Positions 46,746 through 60,177 of a stretch of 64,000 nt of DNA are shown in pieces. The DNA comes from Flavihumibacter soli (GTDB taxonomy: Bacteria > Bacteroidota > Bacteroidia > Sphingobacteriales > Sphingobacteriaceae): the NCBI RefSeq assembly GCF_010692725.1, contig NZ_JAAFZB010000090.1:1-64000 (forward strand). Reading direction: 5' to 3'. Position numbers and translations under genes: made by a program. Positions within the stretch are counted from its first letter, which is position 1. Each line of letters opens with the position of its first letter. The notes under the pieces were generated by a model that was not told the DNA's origin, ran no database searches, and saw nothing but the letters and a program-made list of their open reading frames with translations.

Positions 46746-47591
46746 CTAGTTATGCTTCACTCCAGCATGCTGTTCAATAAGCTGGTTTAATTCATTCTGA
46801 AGAATCCTTGTTGTTTCACCGGGTTTACCGTCGCTAATGACATGTTCATCAACCTGTATAACCGGAAGAATGTTTTTTGTGGTACTGGTTATGAATGCTT
46901 CTTTAGCATTGTAGAGTTCAGTTAAATTAACATCCCGTTCTTCCACCCGGTACATTGAACTCGCAAGTTGTAATACCTGCTTCCGGATGACGCCCCTTAG
47001 CAGGTTGTTCACGGGAGTAACCAAAGCTCCATCCTGTGTAACGATAAAAATGTTGGCTCTTGGGCACTCTGAAATAATGTTCTTATGGTGATACAGCACA
47101 TCGTCAGCATGGTTTTCCGCTATGAATGTCTTTAGCCAGATAGCCATCAGGTAATCAATGGTTTTAACTTCTGAGAACTGCCTCTGGTGTTGATAGCTAA
47201 CTAAGCGGGTACCGTTTCGTGCGGCTTCTTTATTAATATTGAATTTCTGTTGGGTAATAATCAGATTAGGTTCTGCAATGCTGAAACCGTCAGGTGAATA
47301 GCCGCCGGTTAAAGTGATTCGAACGCCTGAATCGGGCAGCTTGTTTCTTGCAATAAGTGAGTGTAGTATTTCCTTGAGTTCTTCAGGTGTTTGTTTCACA
47401 GTAAGTCGCATTTGCCCGGCAGAATGGTAAAACCGTTTGAGGTGGTCGTCGAGAAAAACCGGCCGGCCACCCACTAACTTAAAGAAGTCGAAAATGCCAT
47501 ACCCGCGTTGAATTGACAGATCATTGATAAAAACAGTGGCGTCCGCTGCCGGAATAATGTTACCGTTCAGTACTACAAATGAGTTGCTCAT
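46746..47591 (-). CDS. Class IV aminotransferase (second copy in the BCAA operon)
   Basis: A 281-residue fold-type IV PLP enzyme. It has RGYGIFDFFKLVGGRP, the catalytic lysine in EVKTIDYL and phosphate-binding segments near ISECPRANIF. It is similar in class to IlvE, D-amino-acid aminotransferases and PabC, and the exact reaction cannot be read from the motifs. It is last in the branched-chain operon, 27 nt after ilvA, so it may be an auxiliary transaminase. Confidence 0.85.
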   Translation of the reverse strand: MSNSFVVLNGNIIPAADATVFINDLSIQRGYGIFDFFKLVGGRPVFLDDHLKRFYHSAGQMRLTVKQTPEELKEILHSLIARNKLPDSGVRITLTGGYSPDGFSIAEPNLIITQQKFNINKEAARNGTRLVSYQHQRQFSEVKTIDYLMAIWLKTFIAENHADDVLYHHKNIISECPRANIFIVTQDGALVTPVNNLLRGVIRKQVLQLASSMYRVEERDVNLTELYNAKEAFITSTTKNILPVIQVDEHVISDGKPGETTRILQNELNQLIEQHAGVKHN

Positions 47592-47600
47592 TACCGTGAT

Positions 47601-47621
47601 AAGATTTGAGGTTCAGGATTA
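47601..47621 (-). repeat. Short degenerate heptamer array at the ilvA stop
   Basis: Three degenerate 7-nt units on the plus strand (AAGATTT, GAGGTTC, AGGATTA) end exactly with the ilvA stop codon. It is weak on its own and listed because the position fits the other arrays. Confidence 0.45.
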
Positions 47622-48869
47622 CACAAGATATTCAAATAATGTCTGATCGTTGTTGATCTCTTTAAATTCGAATTTATGTTTATCCATTCTTTCAAGCAGA
47701 AATTTATAATCGCCAGCAGATTTTAGTTCTATCCCTACCAGGGCAGGCCCGCTCTCCCGCTGATTCTTTTTTATGAATTCAAAACGCGTAATATCGTCAT
47801 TAGGCCCAAGGACATCGTTCACAAAGCGTTTTAAGGCACCGGGGCGCTGAGGGAAACGGATGACAAAATAATGTTTTAAACCCTCGTAAAGCAGAGACAA
47901 TTCCTTGATTTCCTGCATCCGCTCAATATCATTATTACCGCCGCTTACAACACAAACGACGTTCTTGCCTTTGATGCTTTCCGCACAAAAGTCGAGTGCT
48001 GCAACCGTTAATGCACCTGCGGGTTCAGCTACGATCGCATCTTCGTTATAGAGTTTGAGAATTGATGTGCAAACCTTTCCTTCCGGAATAAGGAGCATCT
48101 CATCAAGAATCTCTCTGCATATTGGAAATGTTAATAATCCTGCACTCTTAACTGCAGCCCCGTCAACGAAGCGATTGATCTGGCCTAGACTTACCGGTTC
48201 GCCCGCCTTGAGAGCCTGAAACATAGAGGGTGCACCTTCAGGCTCCACACCAATAATCCTGATGCCCGGTCTTTCCTGCTTAAGGTAGGCCCCAACACCT
48301 GCGGCCAATCCGCCTCCTCCGACAGGAACGATAATCACTTCGGCATCCGGCAGTTCATTAAGGATTTCAACTCCGACGGTCGCCTGTCCTTCAATCACAC
48401 GGTGATCATCAAATGGCGGTATAAAGGTCATCCCGTTCGCTTTTGCATATTGAAGCGCATCTTTTAAGCAGTCATCGAAAGTATCGCCAACCAATACGAT
48501 GTCGACCATCCCATTTCCAAACATCCTGGTCTGACCTATTTTTTGACGGGGAGTGAATTCGGGCATAAATATCACACCCCGGGTATTCATTTTTTTGCAG
48601 GAGTAAGCAACTCCCTGCGCATGATTGCCGGCACTTGCACACACAACCCCCTTTTCGAGGTCTTGTGGTTCTAGCTGACTTATCATGTTATAGGCACCTC
48701 GCAGTTTATAAGACCTAACTACCTGCAGATCTTCTCTCTTCAAGTAAATATTACACCCGTACCTTTCAGACAGCCGTTGATTAAAGATCAGCGGCGTCCG
48801 TTTTACAACATTGCCGATACGCTTTAAGGCGCTTACGGGATCACTTTTAAAAGTTTCTGCTGCTATCAT
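47619..48869 (-). CDS. ilvA: Threonine dehydratase (threonine ammonia-lyase)
   Basis: A 416-residue PLP enzyme with the lysine motif YLKREDLQVVRSYKLRGA (Lys in SYKLRG), the Gly-rich VPVGGGGLAAGVG phosphate loop and a C-terminal ACT-like domain (RFPQRPGALKRFVNDVL) for isoleucine feedback control. It makes 2-oxobutanoate, the first step toward isoleucine. It starts 1 nt after the leuA stop, so translation is coupled. Confidence 0.95.
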   Translation of the reverse strand: MIAAETFKSDPVSALKRIGNVVKRTPLIFNQRLSERYGCNIYLKREDLQVVRSYKLRGAYNMISQLEPQDLEKGVVCASAGNHAQGVAYSCKKMNTRGVIFMPEFTPRQKIGQTRMFGNGMVDIVLVGDTFDDCLKDALQYAKANGMTFIPPFDDHRVIEGQATVGVEILNELPDAEVIIVPVGGGGLAAGVGAYLKQERPGIRIIGVEPEGAPSMFQALKAGEPVSLGQINRFVDGAAVKSAGLLTFPICREILDEMLLIPEGKVCTSILKLYNEDAIVAEPAGALTVAALDFCAESIKGKNVVCVVSGGNNDIERMQEIKELSLLYEGLKHYFVIRFPQRPGALKRFVNDVLGPNDDITRFEFIKKNQRESGPALVGIELKSAGDYKFLLERMDKHKFEFKEINNDQTLFEYLV

Positions 48870-48870
48870 C

Positions 48871-50397
48871 CTATAAAAATTTATTTACTGCATCGAGGTA
48901 CGCGCTTGCAGATGCTTTAACTATGTCTGTACTGAAACCATAACCCATATAGGATTTGCCTTCATGGTTCACGCGCATATTCACCTTGCTTATGTCATCG
49001 CTTCCGCCATGCATTGCCTGGATACTGAACTCTTTCAATTCAATATCTTGCCCAATGATTTTTTGAATTGCCCTGATCGATGCGTTTACCGGACCGTTTC
49101 CGGTGGCTGCGGCTTCGTGCTCAGCACCCTTATAATTCAATTTAACTTTAGCATGCGGAATTTCCAGGTCTCCACACGAAACATCAATCGATTCCATGAA
49201 GAGCCCGTTCTTAAAGTTATGTCCTTCACCCATTAAGAGTAATAGGTCATCGTCCTGGATCGACAGCTTTTGGTCAGCAAATACCAGGAAACGTTCGTAA
49301 ATATCGTCAAGATTAATACGGTCAATTTCATAACCTAAACGAGTAAGATGATGCTTTAGGGCGTGCCGTCCGCTTCTTGCTGTTAATATGATTTCAGACT
49401 GTTCAATGCCCACATCTTCCGGGTTCATGATTTCATAGTTCTCACGATGTTTAAGAACTCCATCCTGGTGAATCCCCGAACTATGTGCAAATGCGTTCCT
49501 GCCAACGATAGCTTTATTTGACTGAACGGGCATCCGCATCATGCGGCTAACCATCCCGCTTATCTCTGAGAAATGCTTACTATTTATATTGCTGTGGAGA
49601 TTCAATGAATGATGTGTTTTCAAAATCATGCATACTTCCTCGAGTGCAGTATTGCCCGCCCGCTCTCCAATACCATTAATGGTACATTCTATCTGACGCG
49701 CGCCGTTTTGAATACCAGCCAGCGTATTTGCTGTAGCCAGGCCAAGATCGTTGTGACAGTGCACTGAAATAATCGCCTTATCTATATTTTTTACGTTTTC
49801 TTTCAGAAAGCGGATCTTAGCGCCATACTGATCCGGAAGGCAATAACCATTTGTATCGGGGATATTAACAACAGTTGCACCAGCAGCAATTACTGCTTCT
49901 ATCATACGGGCCAGAAACTCATTGTCTGCACGGCCGGCATCCTCAGCATAAAACTCGATATCCTCTACATACTTTTTAGCGTATTTAACGGCATCTACTG
50001 CTCTTTCGAGGATATCCTCACGCGTGCTGTTAAACTTGTACTTAATGTGCGTGTCAGATGCACCAATGCCCGTGTGTATCCTGGGATGCCTGGCGTATTT
50101 TAATGCCTGAGCTGCAACATCAATATCATTCTTATTTGCCCGAGTTAACGCGCATATGATCGGATTGCTTACTGCTTTAGAAAGTTCAACCACGCTTTGA
50201 AAGTCGCCCGGACTGGACACCGGAAAGCCGGCTTCTATCACGTCCACTCCCAGTAATTCGAGTGATCTTGCAATTTCAATTTTTTCGACAGAAGTTAACT
50301 GGCAACCTGGTACCTGTTCCCCGTCCCGTAAGGTGGTGTCAAAAACGTAAATTCGGTTAGGGTCGTGTAGCATAATGTTATGTGCCTTCAAAGGCAT
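48871..50397 (-). CDS. leuA: 2-isopropylmalate synthase
   Basis: A 508-residue LeuA with [13 protein letters not shown] at the N-terminus, the metal-binding [14 protein letters not shown] and a C-terminal leucine-sensing domain (about residues 380-508). It condenses acetyl-CoA with 2-oxoisovalerate, the first committed leucine step. The ATG at 50397 follows the leuB stop by 1 nt; an ATG eight codons in (50373, MLHDPNR) matches the usual family start better and may be the real one. Confidence 0.95.
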
Positions 50398-50398
50398 T

Positions 50399-51490
50399 TT
50401 AAGTTACTATTACGAGTTGTTGTAAGCGGCTTATCACTTGCCTGCCCATTTGCCCGCTACCAATTATTTTGTCAGCGGGAGTTTGAGGGTCCGCTATATC
50501 GATCGTTCGGAATCCGTCTTTGAGAACACTCCTGACAGCTTCCATAACTAGCCTTCCTTCTTCCTGCAGACCCAGACTAATATCAAGCAGGAGGGCAGCG
50601 GATAGTATGGAAGCAAGGGGGTTTGCTTTATCGGTTCCTGCAATATCATGGGCAGAACCATGGATTGGTTCAAAGAATCCGGGTCCTTCACCAATAGACG
50701 CCGATGCAAGCATGCCCATGGATCCTGCAATCTGCGAGGCTTCATCAGTCAGAATATCTCCGAACAAATTAGCTGTTAAGATGACGTCAAACCGTCTCGG
50801 GTCTTTAACCAGTTGCATTGCCGCATTATCGACGAACATATGTTCGGTTTGTACATCAGGATATTCCTTGGAAATTTCCTGAACGACCTCGCGCCAAAGC
50901 CGCGAACTTTCGAGGACGTTAGCCTTATCCACTGAGCACAGCCTCTTTCGTCGGGTTCTGGCAGCAGAATATGCTTTGCGGGCGATGCGCTCTATTTCAT
51001 AGCGATGATAGATCATCAGGTCTGACGCTGTATTGCGGTCATTGCTGCGATATTTTTCGCCGAAGTAGACATCCCCGGTGAGTTCGCGAAAGAATAGAAT
51101 GTCGGTGCCTTTTAATACTTCCGGTTTCAGGCTTGATGCATGAAGTAATTCATCAAACAATACGATAGGCCTTAGATTAGCATACAGGCCCAGTTCTTTT
51201 CTGATCTGGAGCAAGCCCTGTTCTGGCCTTACTGTCAGATGGGGATTATTGTCATATTTTGCATGGCCGATCGCGCCAAATAAGATGGCGTCACTTCTCC
51301 TTGCCTTTTCAAGTGTTTCGTCAGGTAAGGGAGTGCCGGTTGCTTCAATGGCAGCATGGCCCATTAATCCTTCAGAAAAAGAGAACTGATGATTGAATAT
51401 TGATCCGATCTGTTCGAGCACTGCCTTCCCCCAAACTGTTACCTCCTGGCCTATACCGTCTCCTGGTATGATGAGTATGTTCTTTGTCAT
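50399..51490 (-). CDS. leuB: 3-isopropylmalate dehydrogenase
   Basis: A 363-residue enzyme with [10 protein letters not shown] at the N-terminus, the substrate Arg region [28 protein letters not shown] and the NAD-binding [14 protein letters not shown]. It oxidatively decarboxylates 3-isopropylmalate. It lies 2 nt after leuD and 1 nt before leuA, within a tightly packed leu block. Confidence 0.97.
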
Positions 51491-51492
51491 CT

Positions 51493-52152
51493 TTAGCGAT
51501 TGTTTGTTCGGGAATCTTCAGGGAATACGCCTTTATTATCGGCAACTATTTTATCGACTTTGATCGCCTGCTCAGCTTCGTAGGACTCAATCAGACTTTT
51601 GTTACCGAGGATAAAGTCTATATCATCATAACCGTTGATAAGGCAGGTTTTCTTGTAGGCATTGATATGAAAAGCTTCCTGTTTCAGCGTTGACAGCACT
51701 TTTACTGTCCCGTTTACCAGATCGATCTCTAATTCCAGATCTGAGTTTTTCCGATTTTCTTCAAAGATGTGCTTAAGGAATTCTTCACTTACCTGAACAG
51801 GAAGCAAACCATTATTTAAAGCATTACTCTTAAATATATCGGCAAAAAAGCTACTTATCACCACATCGAAGCCGTAATCCTGTAAGGCCCAGGCAGCGTG
51901 CTCCCGGCTGCTTCCGCAACCGAAGTTCTTACCTGCTACAAGGATTCTTGCATTTTTGTATTCTGGCTTATTAAGTGCAAAATCCGTTTTTGGTTGACCG
52001 TTTGAATCATACCGCCAATCACAAAAAAGGTTCTTTCCAAATCCCTCTCTCGATGTGGCCTTTAAAAATCTGGCGGGGATGATCTGGTCGGTGTCAATAT
52101 TCTCAATGTCCAGTGGAATTACTGTTGATATCAGGTGCTCAAACTTTCTCAT
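51493..52152 (-). CDS. leuD: 3-isopropylmalate dehydratase small subunit
   Basis: A 219-residue LeuD with [16 protein letters not shown] and the swivel-domain motif [19 protein letters not shown]. It forms the isomerase with LeuC, encoded immediately upstream (11 nt). Length is normal. Confidence 0.97.
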
Positions 52153-52163
52153 ATAATTATTAT

Positions 52164-53573
52164 TTAAGATCCAACCTGGAGTAGTTCGCGGATATCTGTA
52201 ATTTTTCCGGTTATCGCCGCCGCCGCTGCGGTCAGAGGACTCACCAGCAAGGTGCGTGCGTTCTGGCCCTGCCGGCCTTCAAAATTGCGGTTTGAGGTAG
52301 AGACACAATATTTGCCGGCTGGTATTTTATCCTCGTTCATCCCTAAGCATGCACTGCATCCCGGCTCCCTGAGCTGAAAGCCTGCTTGTTCAAATACCTT
52401 GTCAAGGCCTTCTGCTATGGCCTGCTGCTCAACATGTTTTGATCCCGGAACGATCCATACCGTTACGTTATCTGCCTTTCGACGGCCTTTAACGAACTCA
52501 GCTACTTCCCTGAGGTCTTCAATTCGTGAATTTGTACAACTGCCTATAAACACATAATCTATTTCCTTTCCGACCATCGCAGTCCCGTCTTCCAGTCCCA
52601 TATAAGTGAGAGCTTTCTGGTAGGACAACTGCTCTGTTGACGGCTGCGAATATGTAGTTGGAATAGTTTCATTTATGGCCATGCCCATTCCCGGATTGGT
52701 GCCATAGGTAATCATCGGTCCGATATCCGCAGCGTCAAAAGTTATCACTGAATCAAATTGTGCGTCCTCGTCACTATAAAGCGTTTGCCAGTATTTTATT
52801 GACTGCTGCCAGTTTTCACCTTTCGGAGCGAATTCTCTTCCTTCAATATAGTTGAAAGTGGTGGTGTCAGGAGCTATCAGTCCGCCGCGGGCTCCCATTT
52901 CAATACTCATGTTGCAAACGGTCATGCGACCTTCCATGCTTAGGCTACGGATCGCTGAACCGGCATACTCGATGAAAAACCCTGTTCCGCCTGCAGCGGA
53001 AAGTTTGGAAATGATATAAAGTATGAGATCTTTCGCACTCACTCCCTGAGCTAACTGCCCGTTCACTTCAATCTTCATCGTTTTCGGGCTTTGCTGCAGC
53101 ACGCACTGAGTAGCTAAAACCTGTTCCACTTCTGATGTCCCTATTCCAAAAGCAATACAGCCAAAAGCGCCATGTGTGGAAGTATGGCTGTCGCCACACA
53201 CAATCGTTTTCCCTGGAAGTGTTATTCCAAGTTCGGGGCCGATGACATGGACTATTCCCTGGTTAGGGTGACCCAATCCGTAAAGCTCAATGCCAAACTC
53301 GTTACAGTTTCTGGTCAGCGTATCTACCTGCAACCGGGATAACTCTTCCCGTATCGGCAAATGCTGGTTAAGAGTCGGTACGTTGTGATCTGCAGTGGCG
53401 ACAGTTTGTTCCGGACGAAACACCGGCAGTCCGCGCCTCCTCAGCCCATCGAATGCCTGCGGAGTTGTCACTTCATGAATCAGGTGCGTGTCGATATATA
53501 AAATGTCAGGGAATCCTTCTGACCTTTTAACGAGGTGAGCATCCCAGATCTTTTCTACCAGAGTCTTTCCCAT
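52164..53573 (-). CDS. leuC: 3-isopropylmalate dehydratase large subunit
   Basis: A 469-residue aconitase-family protein with the 4Fe-4S ligand motifs [14 protein letters not shown] and CSACLGMN, and [13 protein letters not shown] for the active site. With LeuD it isomerises 2- to 3-isopropylmalate. It begins 13 nt after the ilvC stop, at the junction of the ilv and leu halves of the operon. Confidence 0.97.
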
Positions 53574-53586
53574 GGTCTTTATTCAA

Positions 53587-54666
53587 TCAATTACGAGTTT
53601 CTGAAGCCAGTGCTTCCGTTTTCTGATTTTCGGGACGTAAACTGCGTACTGCTTTTCCTGCCTGCCATAATTCGCTTTCCCGTAGTTCTTTCAACTCAAC
53701 CTCCAGTTTCTCTCTGTAATCAGGCTGGCTGTTAGAATCAATCGACCGCTGCGATTCTTTACCTGAAGCTACACTTTTGTAAAGTTCAGCAAATACGGGC
53801 TGCGTAGCATCGCGGAACCGTTTCCACCAGTCTAAAGCACCACGCTGTGCAGTGGTTGAACAGTTGGCGTACATCCAGTCCATGCCGTTTTCTGCTACCA
53901 GTGGCATGAGGCTTTGAGTTAACTCTTCAACTGTTTCATTAAAGGCTTCAGACGGAGAGTGCCCATTATCACGTAACACCTGATACTGTGCGGCAAATAT
54001 TCCCTGAATAGCGCCCATTAGAGTTCCGCGCTCACCAGTGAGATCACTGAAAACTTCTTTTCTGAAGTCTGTTTCGAACAGGTATCCGGAACCTACCGCG
54101 ATTCCTAATGCAATTACTCTTTCTTTTGCCCGCCCGGTAGCATCCTTGAAAATGGCATAGCTGGAATTCAAACCCCGACCTTGCAAAAACATCCGCCGCA
54201 ACGATGTGCCTGATCCCTTCGGAGCCACTAAAAATACATCCACTCCATCTGGCGGAACGATACCGGTTTGTTCATTAAACGTGATACCGAAACCATGTGA
54301 AAAATAAAGAGCCTTGCCCGGTGTCAAATGTTTTTTAACTGTTGGCCAAAGCTCAATCTGAGCTGCGTCGCTTAAAAGGTAACAGATTATAGTGCCTTTT
54401 TGTAAAGCTTCTTCGATTTCAAAAAGCGTTTCGCCGGGAACAAATCCATCGGCAACAGCTTTATCCCAGGATTTGGAATTCTTACGCTGCCCAACAATAA
54501 CGTTGACATCGTTGTCTCTTTGATTGAGTGCCTGGCCGGGTCCCTGAACTCCGTAGCCGATTATCGCAACAGTTTCATTTTGTAATATTTCCTGTGCCTT
54601 TGCCAGGGGAAATTCTTCGCGGGTAACAACGTTTTCAACCGTTCCGCCGAAATTAATTTGTGCCAT
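53587..54666 (-). CDS. ilvC: Ketol-acid reductoisomerase
   Basis: A 359-residue IlvC. The N-terminal Rossmann part has VAIIGYGVQGPGQALNQRDN, and the cofactor loop GQRKNSKSWD suggests NADPH. The metal-binding knotted domain holds SDLTGERGTLMGAIQGIFAA and ANCSTTAQRGALDWW. It turns acetolactate and acetohydroxybutyrate into dihydroxy acids. Preceded by a 62-nt gap after ilvN, the widest inside the operon. Confidence 0.96.
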   Translation of the reverse strand: MAQINFGGTVENVVTREEFPLAKAQEILQNETVAIIGYGVQGPGQALNQRDNDVNVIVGQRKNSKSWDKAVADGFVPGETLFEIEEALQKGTIICYLLSDAAQIELWPTVKKHLTPGKALYFSHGFGITFNEQTGIVPPDGVDVFLVAPKGSGTSLRRMFLQGRGLNSSYAIFKDATGRAKERVIALGIAVGSGYLFETDFRKEVFSDLTGERGTLMGAIQGIFAAQYQVLRDNGHSPSEAFNETVEELTQSLMPLVAENGMDWMYANCSTTAQRGALDWWKRFRDATQPVFAELYKSVASGKESQRSIDSNSQPDYREKLEVELKELRESELWQAGKAVRSLRPENQKTEALASETRN

Positions 54667-54728
54667 GTTTATTTGGTTTGTGTTGATTTATAAATTGAAA
54701 TATGTACTGTTCAGGTGGTCAACCGGGA

Positions 54729-55355
54729 TCACATTGTAAAAACATTGTCGCCTTTATTGAGGAACTCATTTTCAACTACTTCTTCGCTGGGTTCGAGAGC
54801 CTCAAACTCTTTTAATTTTTCATGAAATCCACGACTATTCTTAATAATCGCTACCCGGGCGCTCCTGACGAACTCAATCAGATTATAAGGTTCCAGTGCA
54901 GTTACCAGCCGGTCGGTCTCCTCACGGTGGCCGGTTACTGAAAATACGGTATAGTCTTTCCTAATTACGACCGCTGACGCGCCATATTGCCTGAGCAAAC
55001 GTTCCACCTCAACCTGTTCAGCTATGATATCTGTCGGGACTTTATATAGTGCCAGCTCCTGCCAGATGATTTCATGATTTGTATTGAAGTAGACTTTCAG
55101 TACCTCAACTTGTTTTTCGATCTGCCTTGCAAGCTTTCTAACGACATCGCCCGTTTCCTGGATCACTATATTAAAGCGGTGTATTCCATCGATCTCAGAC
55201 GGAGAGGTGTTCAGGCTCTCGATGTTGATCTTTCGTTTTGAAAATATAATTGCAATTCGGCTTAGTATCCCGATTCGATTTTCAGTATACACGGTGAAAG
55301 TGTAATCCTGTTTTACATCTTCCTTGATATAATCTTTGTGATTTAGTGATGTCAT
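54729..55355 (-). CDS. ilvN: Acetolactate synthase small (regulatory) subunit
   Basis: A 208-residue IlvN/IlvH-type subunit with an N-terminal ACT domain (YTFTVYTENRIGILSRIAIIFSKRKINIESL, cited only in part: TENRIGILSRIA) and a second ACT-like domain. It confers valine feedback control on IlvB. The segment of about 45 residues after the second domain is acidic. It starts 6 nt after ilvB. Confidence 0.94.
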   Translation of the reverse strand: MTSLNHKDYIKEDVKQDYTFTVYTENRIGILSRIAIIFSKRKINIESLNTSPSEIDGIHRFNIVIQETGDVVRKLARQIEKQVEVLKVYFNTNHEIIWQELALYKVPTDIIAEQVEVERLLRQYGASAVVIRKDYTVFSVTGHREETDRLVTALEPYNLIEFVRSARVAIIKNSRGFHEKLKEFEALEPSEEVVENEFLNKGDNVFTM

Positions 55356-55361
55356 AGCTAT

Positions 55362-57101
55362 TTATTTTAACCTGATCTCGCTTACGCTGCAACCCTGCGG
55401 AACCATAGGAAATACATTGTTCTCTTTACCCACCATAACTTCCAGAAGATAGGACCCCTCATGCTCAAGCATGGTTTGCAAAGCTGATCTAAGGTTTTCC
55501 CTTGTTTCTAGACACTGTCCGTCGATGCGGTAGGCTTTTGCCAGGGCTACGAAGTCGGGACTTTCAATGTTGACCGAAGAATAGCGCTTGTCGTTAAACA
55601 GCTGCTGCCACTGCCGGACCATTCCCAGAAAACGGTTGTTCATGATAATAATCTTGATATCAACCTTCGACTGCATAATCGTCCCCAACTCCTGCAAGGT
55701 CATTTGGAAGCCGCCGTCACCGACAATGCCTACGACGGTTCGCTCAGGAGCGCCAAATTTGGCACCTATCGCTGCTGGCAGGCAAAAGCCCATCGTGCCG
55801 AGCCCTCCTGAAGTTACGTTCGACCGGCTGGAATTGAATTTAGCATATCGGCAGGCCACCATCTGATGCTGTCCTACATCGGTAACGATCACCGCGTCAC
55901 CATTGGTTAATTCATTCAGAGTACGTATCACCTCACCCATCGTTAACTCGCCGGTTTCCGGGTTTAACTCCTGGTGAATTACAGTTTCAATTTCCTGCCT
56001 TTCTAACTCAGAAAATCTTTGCAGCCATTCAGCATGGGAGTGTTTCTTTACTAACTCAGTCAGTAATGGGAGTGTTTCCTTGCAATCACCCCAGACTCCA
56101 ATATCAGCTTTTACGTTTTTGTCAATTTCCGAGGGATCGATGTCGAAATGTATGATTGTTGCCTGTTTTGCATATTTATCAAGCCGTCCCGTAACACGGT
56201 CGTCGAAACGCATTCCAATAGCGATCAATACATCGCATTCGTTCGTTAACACATTGGGACCATAGTTTCCGTGCATCCCGAGCATGCCGACGTTCAGTGG
56301 ATGCGCCGATGGAATTGCACTTTCCCCTAAAATTGTCCACGCTGCCGGTATTCCTGATTTCTCAATGAATGCGGTAAACTCTTGTTCAGCGCCACCAAGG
56401 ATGACTCCCTGTCCAAATAATACAAATGGTTTGGTCGCCTTATTGATCACCTCCGCTGCTTCGCTTATTGCACCAATTCTTATTTTGGGTGCTGGCCGGT
56501 AACTTCTAATATGGGAACACTTTTTATAGGCTTCGAATTCCGCGAGCTGCAGTTGTGCATTTTTGGTAATGTCAATCAGCACCGGGCCAGGTCTTCCGCT
56601 CCGGGCTATATAAAAAGCCTTCGCTAGTGCTTCCGGTATTTCTGCAGCATCCGTAACCTGGTAATTCCATTTCGTTACAGGTGCCGTAATATTGATTACA
56701 TCTGTTTCCTGGAAGGCATCTGTGCCCAGCAGATGAGCATATACCTGGCCCGTGATACAAACCAGGGGAGTACTGTCAATCTGAGCATCCGCTAGTCCTG
56801 TAACAAGGTTCGTTGCACCCGGCCCGCTTGTTGCGAATACAACACCAGTTTTACCCGAGACCCTGGCAAATCCCTGTGCAGCATGAATAGCTCCCTGCTC
56901 GTGTCTTACCAGGATGTGCTCTATTTTTCCATCATAGTCATATAGCGCATCATACAGGGGCATTATCGCCCCGCCCGGATATCCGAATACAGTTTCGACC
57001 CCTTCCTCAATGAGGGCCTTTAGGATCATTTCAGATCCGCTGCAGCTGATTAAATCGGCTGTTTCCTTATTCTTCGTCTGTAACACATCCTTCACTAGCA
57101 T
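55362..57101 (-). CDS. ilvB: Acetolactate synthase large (catalytic) subunit
   Basis: A 579-residue TPP enzyme. The catalytic Glu is in [18 protein letters not shown], the TPP/Mg motif is [18 protein letters not shown]...NN, and [14 protein letters not shown] is conserved. It makes acetolactate from pyruvate. The ATG at 57101 overlaps ilvD by 35 nt; an ATG at 57029 would remove the overlap but cut conserved-looking residues before [13 protein letters not shown], so the longer start is preferred. Confidence 0.96.
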
Positions 57102-58746
57102 CTTTTACTTGTTTTAGGTACTTGAACAAAATTCCTTTAGTTGCTGCAGGCTTCGGCTGTATCCACTTACTTCGCCTACTGTTTAATTCTTGATCACTGA
57201 TCATCAGATTAATCGAGTTATCGTTCGCATCAATAACTATCAGATCATCATCCTCTACCAGCGCTATATTTCCGCCTTCCCATGCTTCGGGAGTAATATG
57301 GCCAACAACGAAACCGTGTGTGCCTCCCGAAAAGCGACCATCGGTAATTAAGGCGACAGACTTACCAAGTCCGGCACCGATAATCGCTGATGTAGGTTTA
57401 AGCATTTCAGGCATTCCAGGAGCTCCCTTTGGACCTACATGGCGTATAACGACTACATCACCCTGCTTTACTTTTCCACTTTGGATTCCTGCTATCAAAG
57501 CTTTCTCACCGTCAAAGACTCGTGCGGGTCCTTCGAATCGCTCACCTTCCTTACCACTGATCTTTGCGACCGAGCCCTTTGGAGATAAGTTCCCGTATAA
57601 CATTTGCAGGTGTCCTGTCTCTTTTAGAGGGTTTTCTATTGGGCGTATCACCTGCTGAGTGGTAAATTCGAGATCAAGCGCATCAGTCACATTCTGCGCA
57701 AGTGTTTTGCCGGTAACTGTCATACAATCGCCGAATATCATTCCCTGTTTCAGGAGATATTTCAATATCGCCGGAACACCACCAATCTCATGTACATCTT
57801 CCATCAGATATTGGCCACTCGGCTTCAGATCTGCAATCACCGGAGTTTTATCACTGATCGCCTGAAACTCATCAAGCGTTAAATTAAGGCCTACAGATCT
57901 GGCCATGGCAATGAGATGAAGTACAGCATTGGTGGAACCGCCTAGAGCCATTACCACCACAATCGCGTTATGAAAGGCTTCCTTTGTCATGATATCGGAA
58001 GGAAGAATGTTTTTTTCAAGCAGATTCCTGATTGCCTTTCCTGCAGCCCTGCACTCCTGCTGTTTTTCTTCGCTCAAAGCAGGGTAGGAGGAGCTATATG
58101 GCAGGCTCATACCCAGTGCTTCAATTGCTGACGCCATTGTATTGGCAGTGTACATTCCTCCGCAGGCACCAGCTCCTGGACATGAGTTGCGAATGATACC
58201 CTGGTAGTCTTCTTCATTAAGGTTTCCTGCAAGCTTTTGACCAAGGGCCTCAAACGCTGACACGATATTTAAAGACTGTCCCTTATATTGACCCGAGTGA
58301 ATACTGCCGCCGTATACCATGATGGCCGGTCGGTTCAACCTTCCCATAGCGATGATCGAGCCGGGCATATTCTTATCACAGCCAGGAAGAGCGATCAGCC
58401 CGTCGTAATATTGAGCTCCGCAAACGGTTTCTATACTGTCGGCAATTATGTCTCTGGAAACAAGAGAATAACGCATTCCGTCGGTTCCGTTTGATATACC
58501 ATCACTGACGCCAATGGTATTAAATATCAAACCCACGAGTTCATTGTCCGTTACGCCCGTTTTTACAGTTTTCGCCAGATCATTCAGGTGCATATTGCAG
58601 GTGTTCCCTTCATAACCCATGCTGACGATTCCAACTTGCGCTTTTTTCATGTCATCAGGCGTCAGCCCAATCCCAAATAACATGGCTTGTGCAGCCGGTT
58701 GCGTAGGGTCAGCGGTTATAGTTTTGCTATAGCGGTTCAGCTCCAT
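57067..58746 (-). CDS. ilvD: Dihydroxy-acid dehydratase
   Basis: A 559-residue IlvD. The Fe-S ligand Cys residues lie in [18 protein letters not shown] and [16 protein letters not shown]. The C-terminal region has [24 protein letters not shown]. It dehydrates dihydroxy acids to 2-oxo acids for Val and Ile. It begins 4 nt after the ilvE stop. Confidence 0.97.
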
Positions 58747-58750
58747 GATA

Positions 58751-59641
58751 TCAGATGATTACCTCGTAGTTTTCCTTTTCCAACACCAGGTTTTTGTAAG
58801 TTCGCTGTATAGTCGCTCCTAATGTATCTTTCCAATCTGCGACGAAAACTTTGTCGTCGATAGATTTAATACCCACAATCTCCGCGGCTGTTCCGCAGAA
58901 AAATGCGCTTTGAGCCGTTTGAATATCTGCCACTGTCAGGGTTTTTTCAAAAACGGGGATACCCAGGATCTGCCCGATCTCGAACACTGTTGCCCTGGTG
59001 ATGCCTGGCAGAATGCTGCCCGGAGGAGGAGTAAACAGACAGCCATCTTTCTCAAGAAAGAAGTTGGCTCCGGGAGCCTCTGCTATGTTTTCATGCATAT
59101 CCAACAGCAGTGCTTCATCGTATCCCTTGTCCTTTGCCTCTGTAGTGGCCAAAATGGAATTGACATAATGTCCTGTCGCTTTTGCTTCAACCTTAACGGA
59201 TTTAGGATTAGGTCGCTGGAAGCTGGAAATGCAAACTTTTAATAGGTTATTCCCGAGGTATGCGCCCCAGTCCCATGCACAGATCATTACGGAGACTTCT
59301 GCAGGTCTTGTCAGCGACATATTGGGACTGCAAAACACCAGAGGGCGGATATAAGCGTTCTTTAAGTGGTTAACCTCCAGTATCTTGTAGGTAGCGTCGA
59401 TGAGCTGTTCATTGTCAAATTCATAAGGAATGTTGATCAGCTCACATGATTGTTTAAGTCTCTCAAAATGCTCCTTGGCTTTGAAAACCCGGATACCGTT
59501 ATGGGTTTGATATGCTCGAATGCCTTCAAAAACACCGTATCCGTAGTGAAGGGATTGACCGTAAAGATCTGTTTGTGTTTCTGCAGCTTTGAGAAATTTA
59601 CCATTTAAGTAGAGGACTGTTTCACTGTTGTAATATTGCAT
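58751..59641 (-). CDS. ilvE: Branched-chain amino acid aminotransferase
   Basis: A 296-residue class IV aminotransferase with [16 protein letters not shown], the PLP lysine in [15 protein letters not shown], and the phosphate-binding Gx[14 protein letters not shown] segment. It transaminates the last 2-oxo acids to Val, Leu and Ile. It is the first gene of the operon. Its start lies 20 nt after the T-run of the attenuator terminator, so only read-through transcripts reach it. Confidence 0.96.
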
Positions 59642-59660: not shown

Positions 59661-59697
59661 AAAAAAAAGCGCCGTTCTTTTTTGGTAAGAAGGCGCC
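59661..59697 (-). terminator. Attenuator terminator before ilvE
   Basis: On the minus strand GGCGCC and GGCGC arms, extended by TTCTT pairing with AAGAA around one bulge, form a strong GC-based hairpin followed by eight T residues. It lies 23 nt after the leader peptide stop and 20 nt before ilvE. An intrinsic terminator in front of the first structural gene points to attenuation. Confidence 0.92.
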
Positions 59698-59730
59698 GTT
59701 ATATTGTGTTGTCGGTTATCTAAAGCGCCT
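59691..59730 (-). promoter_or_regulatory. Putative antiterminator pairing of the ilv leader
   Basis: AGGCGC at 59725-59730 (codons Gln-Ala-Leu at the leader end) is the exact complement of GCGCCT at 59691-59696, the 5' arm of the terminator. Pairing of the two would block the terminator. A ribosome stalled at the Leu run about 15 nt upstream would leave AGGCGC free, while one at the stop codon would cover it. The model is inferred from the sequence. Confidence 0.7.
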
Positions 59731-59842
59731 GCTGCAAAATCAGTAGTAGGATAGTACCTGCTAAATAGATGAGGCTGACCAGTTTGTGATCACTGACAAG
59801 AGGAGCGTAAATCAGAGCTGTTTGAGTGTTGTGAGGAACCAT
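59720..59842 (-). CDS. ilvL: Branched-chain operon leader peptide (attenuator ORF)
   Basis: A 40-codon ORF not otherwise overlapping any gene. It contains 10 Leu, 4 Ile and 3 Val (17 of 40), with the run T-I-L-L-L-I-L at residues 30-36 using two CTA Leu codons. It ends in CAG GCG CTT TAG. It is followed by an antiterminator-capable segment and an intrinsic terminator before ilvE. Its job would be to sense Leu/Ile/Val-tRNA charging by ribosome stalling. The name follows enterobacterial ilvL by analogy; the sequence itself is not similar. Confidence 0.82.
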   Translation of the reverse strand: MVPHNTQTALIYAPLVSDHKLVSLIYLAGTILLLILQQAL

Positions 59843-60118
59843 TATTAAAATCTTTGATTTGATAAATTCAATGTAGAGCCTTCAAATGGTTTAATCAATA
59901 GCTAATTGTATTATTATCAAATAGATACATAATTCTGAAAATTGGGAAACGTTCAGAACATTAGCGATTAGTTTAGCCCGGATTCCAAATTTAAATATCT
60001 GCGCCGTAGACTATTTCCATATATGGTTTTCGGTTCAAAAAGCGGAGTGGACTGCATTCTATCATCACTTTCTGCGTAAAATACCAGACAGACCTAAATA
60101 AGTTAAAATATCACCCAC
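59843..60118. other. Gene-free stretch upstream of the ilv leader
   Basis: About 275 A/T-rich bases between the atpC terminator and the ilv leader. It must hold the promoter of the branched-chain operon on the minus strand, but no TTTG/TAnnTTTG pair with good spacing could be fixed; the best candidates are partial. I see no ORF or repeat in it. Confidence 0.6.
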
Positions 60119-60149
60119 AAAAAAACCCGGCAAATTAAAATTTGCCGGG
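60119..60149 (-). terminator. Terminator of the atpD-atpC operon
   Basis: A CCCGGCAAA / TTTGCCGGG stem (9 bp, 6-nt loop) followed on the minus strand by seven T residues, 28 nt after the atpC stop. Confidence 0.93.
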
Positions 60150-60177
60150 CCGATAATTTAGGGTTCAAAAAGAAATA

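Follow-up and report, generated by a model that had tools for sequence, protein, structure and literature searches.

A candidate ribosome-stalling attenuator in front of the ilv-leu operon of Flavihumibacter soli and its recurrence in Bacteroidota

The ilvGMEDA, ilvB and leuABCD operons of enterobacteria carry attenuators that combine a leader containing many residues of the amino acids under control, a terminator located before the first gene, and an antiterminator using the 5' arm of that terminator. The attenuator of the Corynebacterium ilvBNC operon, as presented in the relevant passages of two reports, involves an upstream ORF (uORF) and a three-hairpin model (PMC10272879, PMC11857589). 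In 2010, according to the passage of one report that deals with their distribution, leader-peptide systems were known outside Proteobacteria and Actinobacteria only as the new bacilli case of its authors (PMC2965389). For Bacteroidota, indications of leader-peptide attenuation ahead of amino-acid operons come from Flavobacterium psychrophilum, in a report whose main text, in the sections concerned, names pheA and hisG among the conserved 5' elements and no ilv/leu element (PMC9723704). Passages of other reports describe, in B. thetaiotaomicron, sORFs that resemble leader peptides (PMC7366714) and, as a candidate cis-regulatory element of Bacteroidetes, the Bacteroid-trp RNA motif (Rfam RF01692; Weinberg 2010; PMC2864571). 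Among the literature matches listed, no paper dealt with an ilv/leu leader-peptide attenuator in Bacteroidota.

Here we analysed a 64,000-nucleotide stretch of the Flavihumibacter soli genome (the window, meaning this whole stretch), for which an initial annotation had proposed a ribosome-stalling attenuator in front of the operon ilvE-D-B-N-C-leuC-D-B-A-ilvA. NCBIfam assignments returned the same gene order, and the proposal itself appears well supported by recurrence of the element, genome-specific pairing of its parts and leader codons matched to the pathway. Judging from these sequence comparisons, we consider that the region probably constitutes (with a likelihood of roughly 0.8) a ribosome-mediated (leader-peptide) attenuator that would respond chiefly to charged tRNA-Leu and secondarily to Ile, before the whole branched-chain operon.

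The elements involved are collected in Table 1. Translation of the leader reproduced the composition first counted, 17 Leu, Ile or Val (L/I/V) residues in 40 codons (10 Leu, 4 Ile and 3 Val). The Leu/Ile run had been placed at residues 30 to 36 with two CTA codons; the CTA pair stood (codons 32 and 33), but the run only extends from residue 31 to 36, residue 30 being a threonine. Locally, CTA is the least used Leu codon (7.3% of the 412 Leu codons in 12 neighbouring genes), and the two remaining frames across the run, as read from the sequence, are not L/I/V-rich. Folding recovered the intrinsic hairpin and eight Ts claimed before ilvE at -13.8 kcal/mol (z -2.2; range about -13.2 to -13.8), with one bulged base in the stem, and it was because of this bulge that a simple consensus terminator scan of the window did not list it. 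The AGGCGC segment, said to be complementary to the 5' arm of the terminator, finds its partner GCGCCU there, and the region 2:region 3 pairing, folded without the 3' arm, reached -9.8 kcal/mol (z -2.4). Its first base lies 13 nt past the second CTA codon by direct count, near the 15 nt originally estimated. A leader codon run, an intrinsic terminator, a mutually exclusive antiterminator and stall codons placed as in an attenuator are thus all found in the window. The genes upstream of the leader unit are atp genes (Pfam). At the other end of the operon, a gene for a class IV aminotransferase (Pfam Aminotran_4; 46746-47591, minus strand) begins 27 nt past ilvA and might be cotranscribed with it.

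Table 1. Features of the ilv-leu leader region and its surroundings (window coordinates).
Feature	Position	Strand	Details
Leader ORF, 40 codons	59720..59842	-	MVPHNTQTALIYAPLVSDHKLVSLIYLAGTILLLILQQAL*, stop UAG
Proposed stall run, codons 31-36	59735..59752	-	ATC CTA CTA CTG ATT TTG (ILLLIL)
Region 2, 5' strand of antiterminator	59725..59730	-	AGGCGC at leader end
Region 3, terminator 5' arm	59691..59696	-	GCGCCU, common to antiterminator
Terminator hairpin (3:4)	59668..59697	-	GGCGCCUUCUUACCAAAAAAGAACGGCGC + 8 U, folding
Terminator U-run	59661..59668	-	8 U
Promoter-like site	59869..59898	-	TTG-N20-TACATTG, pattern script; 56 nt upstream of leader ATG
ilvE, first gene of the putatively controlled operon	58751..59641	-	NCBIfam
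ilvD-B-N-C-leuC-D-B-A-ilvA	47619..58746	-	NCBIfam
Terminator past upstream atp genes	60124..60151	-	Terminator scan; sets atp genes apart from ilv unit

Upstream of the leader, the TTG-N20-TACATTG site presumably corresponds to the Bacteroidota-type -33/-7 promoter consensus. Of 26 Pedobacter-side loci, which are related to one another, 19 have the pattern TTG-N-TAnnTTG ahead of the leader (0.7 expected); in the phylum survey described below, only 6 of 55 loci have it (2.0 expected). At one fixed spacing it occurred 3 times in the window, with 2.9 expected by chance, and taken alone it is weak evidence.

Given the size of the ribosome footprint, region 2 would be exposed while a ribosome is stalled in the run and covered once a ribosome stands at the stop codon. 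From this arrangement we infer leader translation, stalling, kinetic competition and a response to starvation. With plentiful charged tRNA, the ribosome would reach the UAG and cover region 2, which would let the 3:4 hairpin form and RNA polymerase stop before ilvE. With scarce charged tRNA-Leu, it would instead stall on codons 31-36, and the free region 2 would capture region 3 before region 4 is made, allowing transcription to enter the operon. When the window sequence was folded with the stalled ribosome masked, the antiterminator formed as long as the 3' arm was not yet made; on the complete RNA the terminator still won, so the switch would have to be kinetic. Folding revealed no specific 1:2 pairing (a pause or protector hairpin) in the window, and across the locus set such pairing was weak (z -5.2). 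A small hairpin (GGTAT..ATACC or ATGTGA..TCACAT) was observed between the L/I/V run and region 2 in loci L208-L251 of family f84 and L162-L180 of family f54, where it may act as a pause hairpin. Paired cells made up 84% in f84, and one pair there had changed on both sides; f54 was judged by eye.

An ordinary terminator lying beside a Leu-rich ORF by chance would show the same parts with no switch behind them, and the fact that consensus scans of the window list neither the ilvE terminator nor any unusual promoter is what such a coincidence would look like. Of the 65 U-tailed hairpins of the window, only one of the 64 other than the ilvE terminator has a comparable L/I/V-rich ORF, and dinucleotide shuffling of the region produced an equally rich ORF at the same place in 2 of 200 cases. 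We then considered relatives, comparing 45 contigs encoding an ilvE relative plus additional genomes; the nearest named record was a Pedobacter MAG (L031; ilvE identity 78%). A leader was called when at least 6 of 8 codons were L/I/V (5 of 8 in some counts), and all counts depend on thresholds (hairpin cut-off from -3 to -6 kcal/mol; L/I/V in 5 or 6 of 8 codons). After 11 rows had been dropped, 60 of 98 hairpins upstream of ilvE or ilvD were preceded by a leader with at least 6/8 L/I/V. Among 594 control hairpins from other parts of these loci the number was 19, which shows that such ORFs do arise beside other hairpins. Per-locus shuffling gave p < 0.05 in 52 of 64 loci; the closest relative, L002, has 4 L/I/V in 8 codons and was not significant (p = 0.345). 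The recurrence at ilv operons across the phylum, together with the genome-specific pairing and pathway-matched residues reported in the following paragraphs, makes a chance neighbourhood very improbable.

For the phylum survey, ilvD was detected at E <= 1e-180 in 117 of 296 genomes, giving 116 loci besides the window. We found an L/I/V-rich leader just before a U-run hairpin in 55 of them, distributed as follows: f84 (another class) 18/28, f54 18/27, f15 6/7, f36 4/8, f22 3/3, f1 (the family of the window) 2/6, f68 1/2, f49, f77 and f111 1/1 each, and eleven further families 0/32. The leader looked for upstream of ilvE in relatives, L/I/V-rich and placed before a terminator, therefore recurs both in close relatives and in the phylum. 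Some of the printed leader peptides had been read in a wrong frame (L045, L166 and L173 among them), and a candidate Leu-only first module in Chryseobacterium-type loci (MSFLLLLLS...) was rejected, its sequence being an out-of-frame reading of an Ile/Val leader; as this misreading illustrates, a limit of 6 L/I/V in 8 codons leaves the frame unfixed in T-rich leaders. Two complete leader-terminator modules in series were present at the stricter limit in 5 of the 55 survey loci, and L176 has three. A search of f22 with an ilvE query matched 30 of 120 genomes; at the 5/8 limit, at least one module was found in 29 of these 30 loci and two in series in 13 (loci among L329-L356). Tandem modules before ilvE were noted in L329-L356, L176, L069 and L054.

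Next, we asked how specifically each leader end pairs with the terminator arm of its own genome. Column-by-column covariation within one family was uninformative in that 6 of 9 terminator pairs were invariant, and because of this scarcity of variation within that family, swap tests between genomes were used. In 56 loci (18 near-duplicates named by eye removed; loci with at least 5/8 L/I/V kept, plus L002), own leader end and own arm paired at a mean of -14.5 kcal/mol vs -10.2 kcal/mol for permuted pairs (z -12.0). A GC-stratified swap among 97 loci, obtained from 117 by removing identical peptide ends, yielded -13.85 vs -9.77 kcal/mol (z -15.5), and among 34 loci sharing no 11-mer the z value was -10.4, with the native pair in the best tenth of its row in 20 and better than the row median in 30; since all these sets hold only loci with both leader and hairpin, the values speak to pairing and not to frequency. 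The native pair of the window scored -15.2 kcal/mol in the GC-stratified swap, where 9 of 96 foreign arms were as good or better. The complementarity is hence kept as the sequences change, in line with the initially suggested check for compensatory base changes, and between families leader end and terminator arm have varied in a compensatory manner. Spacing was also measured in the 97 loci: counted from the end of the last L/I/V codon in the run, region 2 begins a median of 11 nt later (IQR 10-14); its median limits are -9 and +1 relative to the stop codon, and a further 25 nt (21-28) separate it from the beginning of the terminator. In the window, the automatically chosen duplex is longer and begins inside the Leu run (value -5, vs 13 nt for the AGGCGC core).

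To examine pathway specificity, cut-offs of our own choice were used for the L/I/V, His and Trp tests (6, 4 and 2 of 8 codons, respectively), and the his and trp sets consisted of the 30 best-scoring loci each of the family of the window. The ilv regions of the phylum survey contained an L/I/V-rich ORF in 64 of 116 cases, a Trp-rich one in 5 and a His-rich one in none. All 30 hisG loci showed a His-rich leader ORF on inspection; under the cut-offs, 29 of the 30 counted as His-rich, 3 as L/I/V-rich and 1 as Trp-rich. For trpE, the corresponding numbers were 25 of 30 Trp-rich, 1 L/I/V-rich and none His-rich. The leader residue matches the downstream pathway. The genome of the window has its own His leader upstream of hisG (L281, G000:C94, upstream of 96558). 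Among the hisG loci (L269-L298), in most of 11 sequences the leader end is covered by a hairpin and a conserved GTTTCTACGTGAAAC-like element is present; no U-run directly past this element was found in the 11 sequences, suggesting a different switch, perhaps at the level of translation, and an Rfam scan of 6 hisG loci gave no relevant match. In the trpE loci (L299-L328), a strong U-tailed hairpin usually comes after the Trp-rich leader, and the leader in the genome of the window (L312, TGG TGG), read by eye, is MMIVLNTCNWWSFFN, then a terminator. The Bacteroid-trp motif is a Trp leader before trp genes; RF01692 did not match the window, 20 ilv loci or the six trpE loci scanned.

These data also bear on another reading, in which the product of the ORF is a small hydrophobic (membrane) protein with a function of its own and the hairpin stands there incidentally. 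The peptides are hydrophobic, and a Pfam search assigned the window peptide to no family. Among related and survey loci, however, the leaders differ greatly in sequence and length but keep their position and L/I/V content, and His and Trp versions precede his and trp genes, so that we regard a membrane protein as a slightly fainter prospect still than a chance ORF. In a codon-position comparison bearing on leader translation, five sequences of the genus had 11, 9 and 15 variable columns at positions 1, 2 and 3, which favours neither side. Control by a T-box or another known riboswitch deserves the least credence of all, as Rfam scans of the window, and of 20 related loci at E <= 0.1, returned no such match. 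At the gathering score no Rfam family was found over the leader of the window or those of the 20 related loci. Two matches stayed below threshold: Phe_leader, at 33.8 bits (cut-off 55; E 0.09), covering the leader of L211 (f84), and RsaJ near the L045 leader, on the other strand. Since no Rfam family matched in the scanned loci, family-based annotation would miss these leaders.

The element is patchy in the family of the window and degraded in some close relatives. Within the genus, ilvD was found in 17 of 20 genomes, and leader plus hairpin in ten (the window, G003, G004, G006, G007, G010, G012, G017, G018 and G019), the G006 leader having only 4/8 L/I/V. G008 has a leader and a hairpin under the detection limit, G013 a leader-like ORF without terminator, and no L/I/V-rich leader was present in five (G001, G002, G009, G011 and G015). 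All seven of these genomes encode ilvB and leuA without internal stops, so loss of the switch need not entail loss of the pathway; the G015 ilvD match has one in-frame TAA. Leaders lost or degraded with the pathway genes kept were recorded in five species of the genus (L079, L082, L084, L090 and L004), and in L082 the promoter-like site remains and the terminator is gone. Outside the genus, one of 8 ilvD-first loci of the family has the module (L093, L095-L099, L101 and L104). An attenuator that is inherited yet weak or vestigial in F. soli, with a transcription factor or ppGpp doing most of the control, would fit the five losses and the missing terminator of G013, six genomes in which ilvB and leuA are intact. 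The copy in the window, in contrast, has all parts, and its terminator (-13.2 kcal/mol) is stronger than any in the nine further members of the genus that have both leader and hairpin (range -3.8 to -7.7 kcal/mol), and we therefore consider a vestigial copy unlikely and a working attenuator the better reading.

More broadly, leader-peptide attenuation might be a main control of the ilv-leu and trp operons of Bacteroidota and, in another form without intrinsic terminator, of their his operons, sometimes apparently without a 1:2 protector, as in the window, and with two serial modules in one lineage; the odds on this generalization seem to us evenly balanced. The leaders offer a concrete candidate for an amino-acid-sensing switch of branched-chain synthesis in several families and two classes of the phylum. 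If the reading is true, RNA polymerase would have ribosomes close behind it in a phylum that makes weak use of Shine-Dalgarno sequences, and serial modules would sharpen the response. Because stalling attenuation requires a ribosome closely trailing RNA polymerase, the leaders make transcription-translation coupling testable.

The kind of mechanism is already known; the ilv-leu member and its spread are apparently new, at least to us, published hints from Bacteroidota being few. The attenuation suggested for F. psychrophilum (PMC9723704), in the sections dealing with it, resembles the case of the window in phylum, in its amino-acid biosynthesis operons and in the mechanism proposed. By the descriptions given in the passages concerned, Corynebacterium ilvBNC (PMC10272879, PMC11857589) likewise shows uORF-based attenuation of a branched-chain operon, but belongs to Actinobacteria and follows a three-hairpin model. 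In architecture, the leader region of the window is like the enterobacterial ilvGMEDA, ilvB and leuABCD attenuators, with an amino-acid-rich leader, an intrinsic terminator and an antiterminator including the terminator 5' arm. It differs from them in that no specific 1:2 protector is seen in the window, that region 2 overlaps the leader end and stop codon, and that, in another phylum, one leader precedes joined ilv and leu genes.
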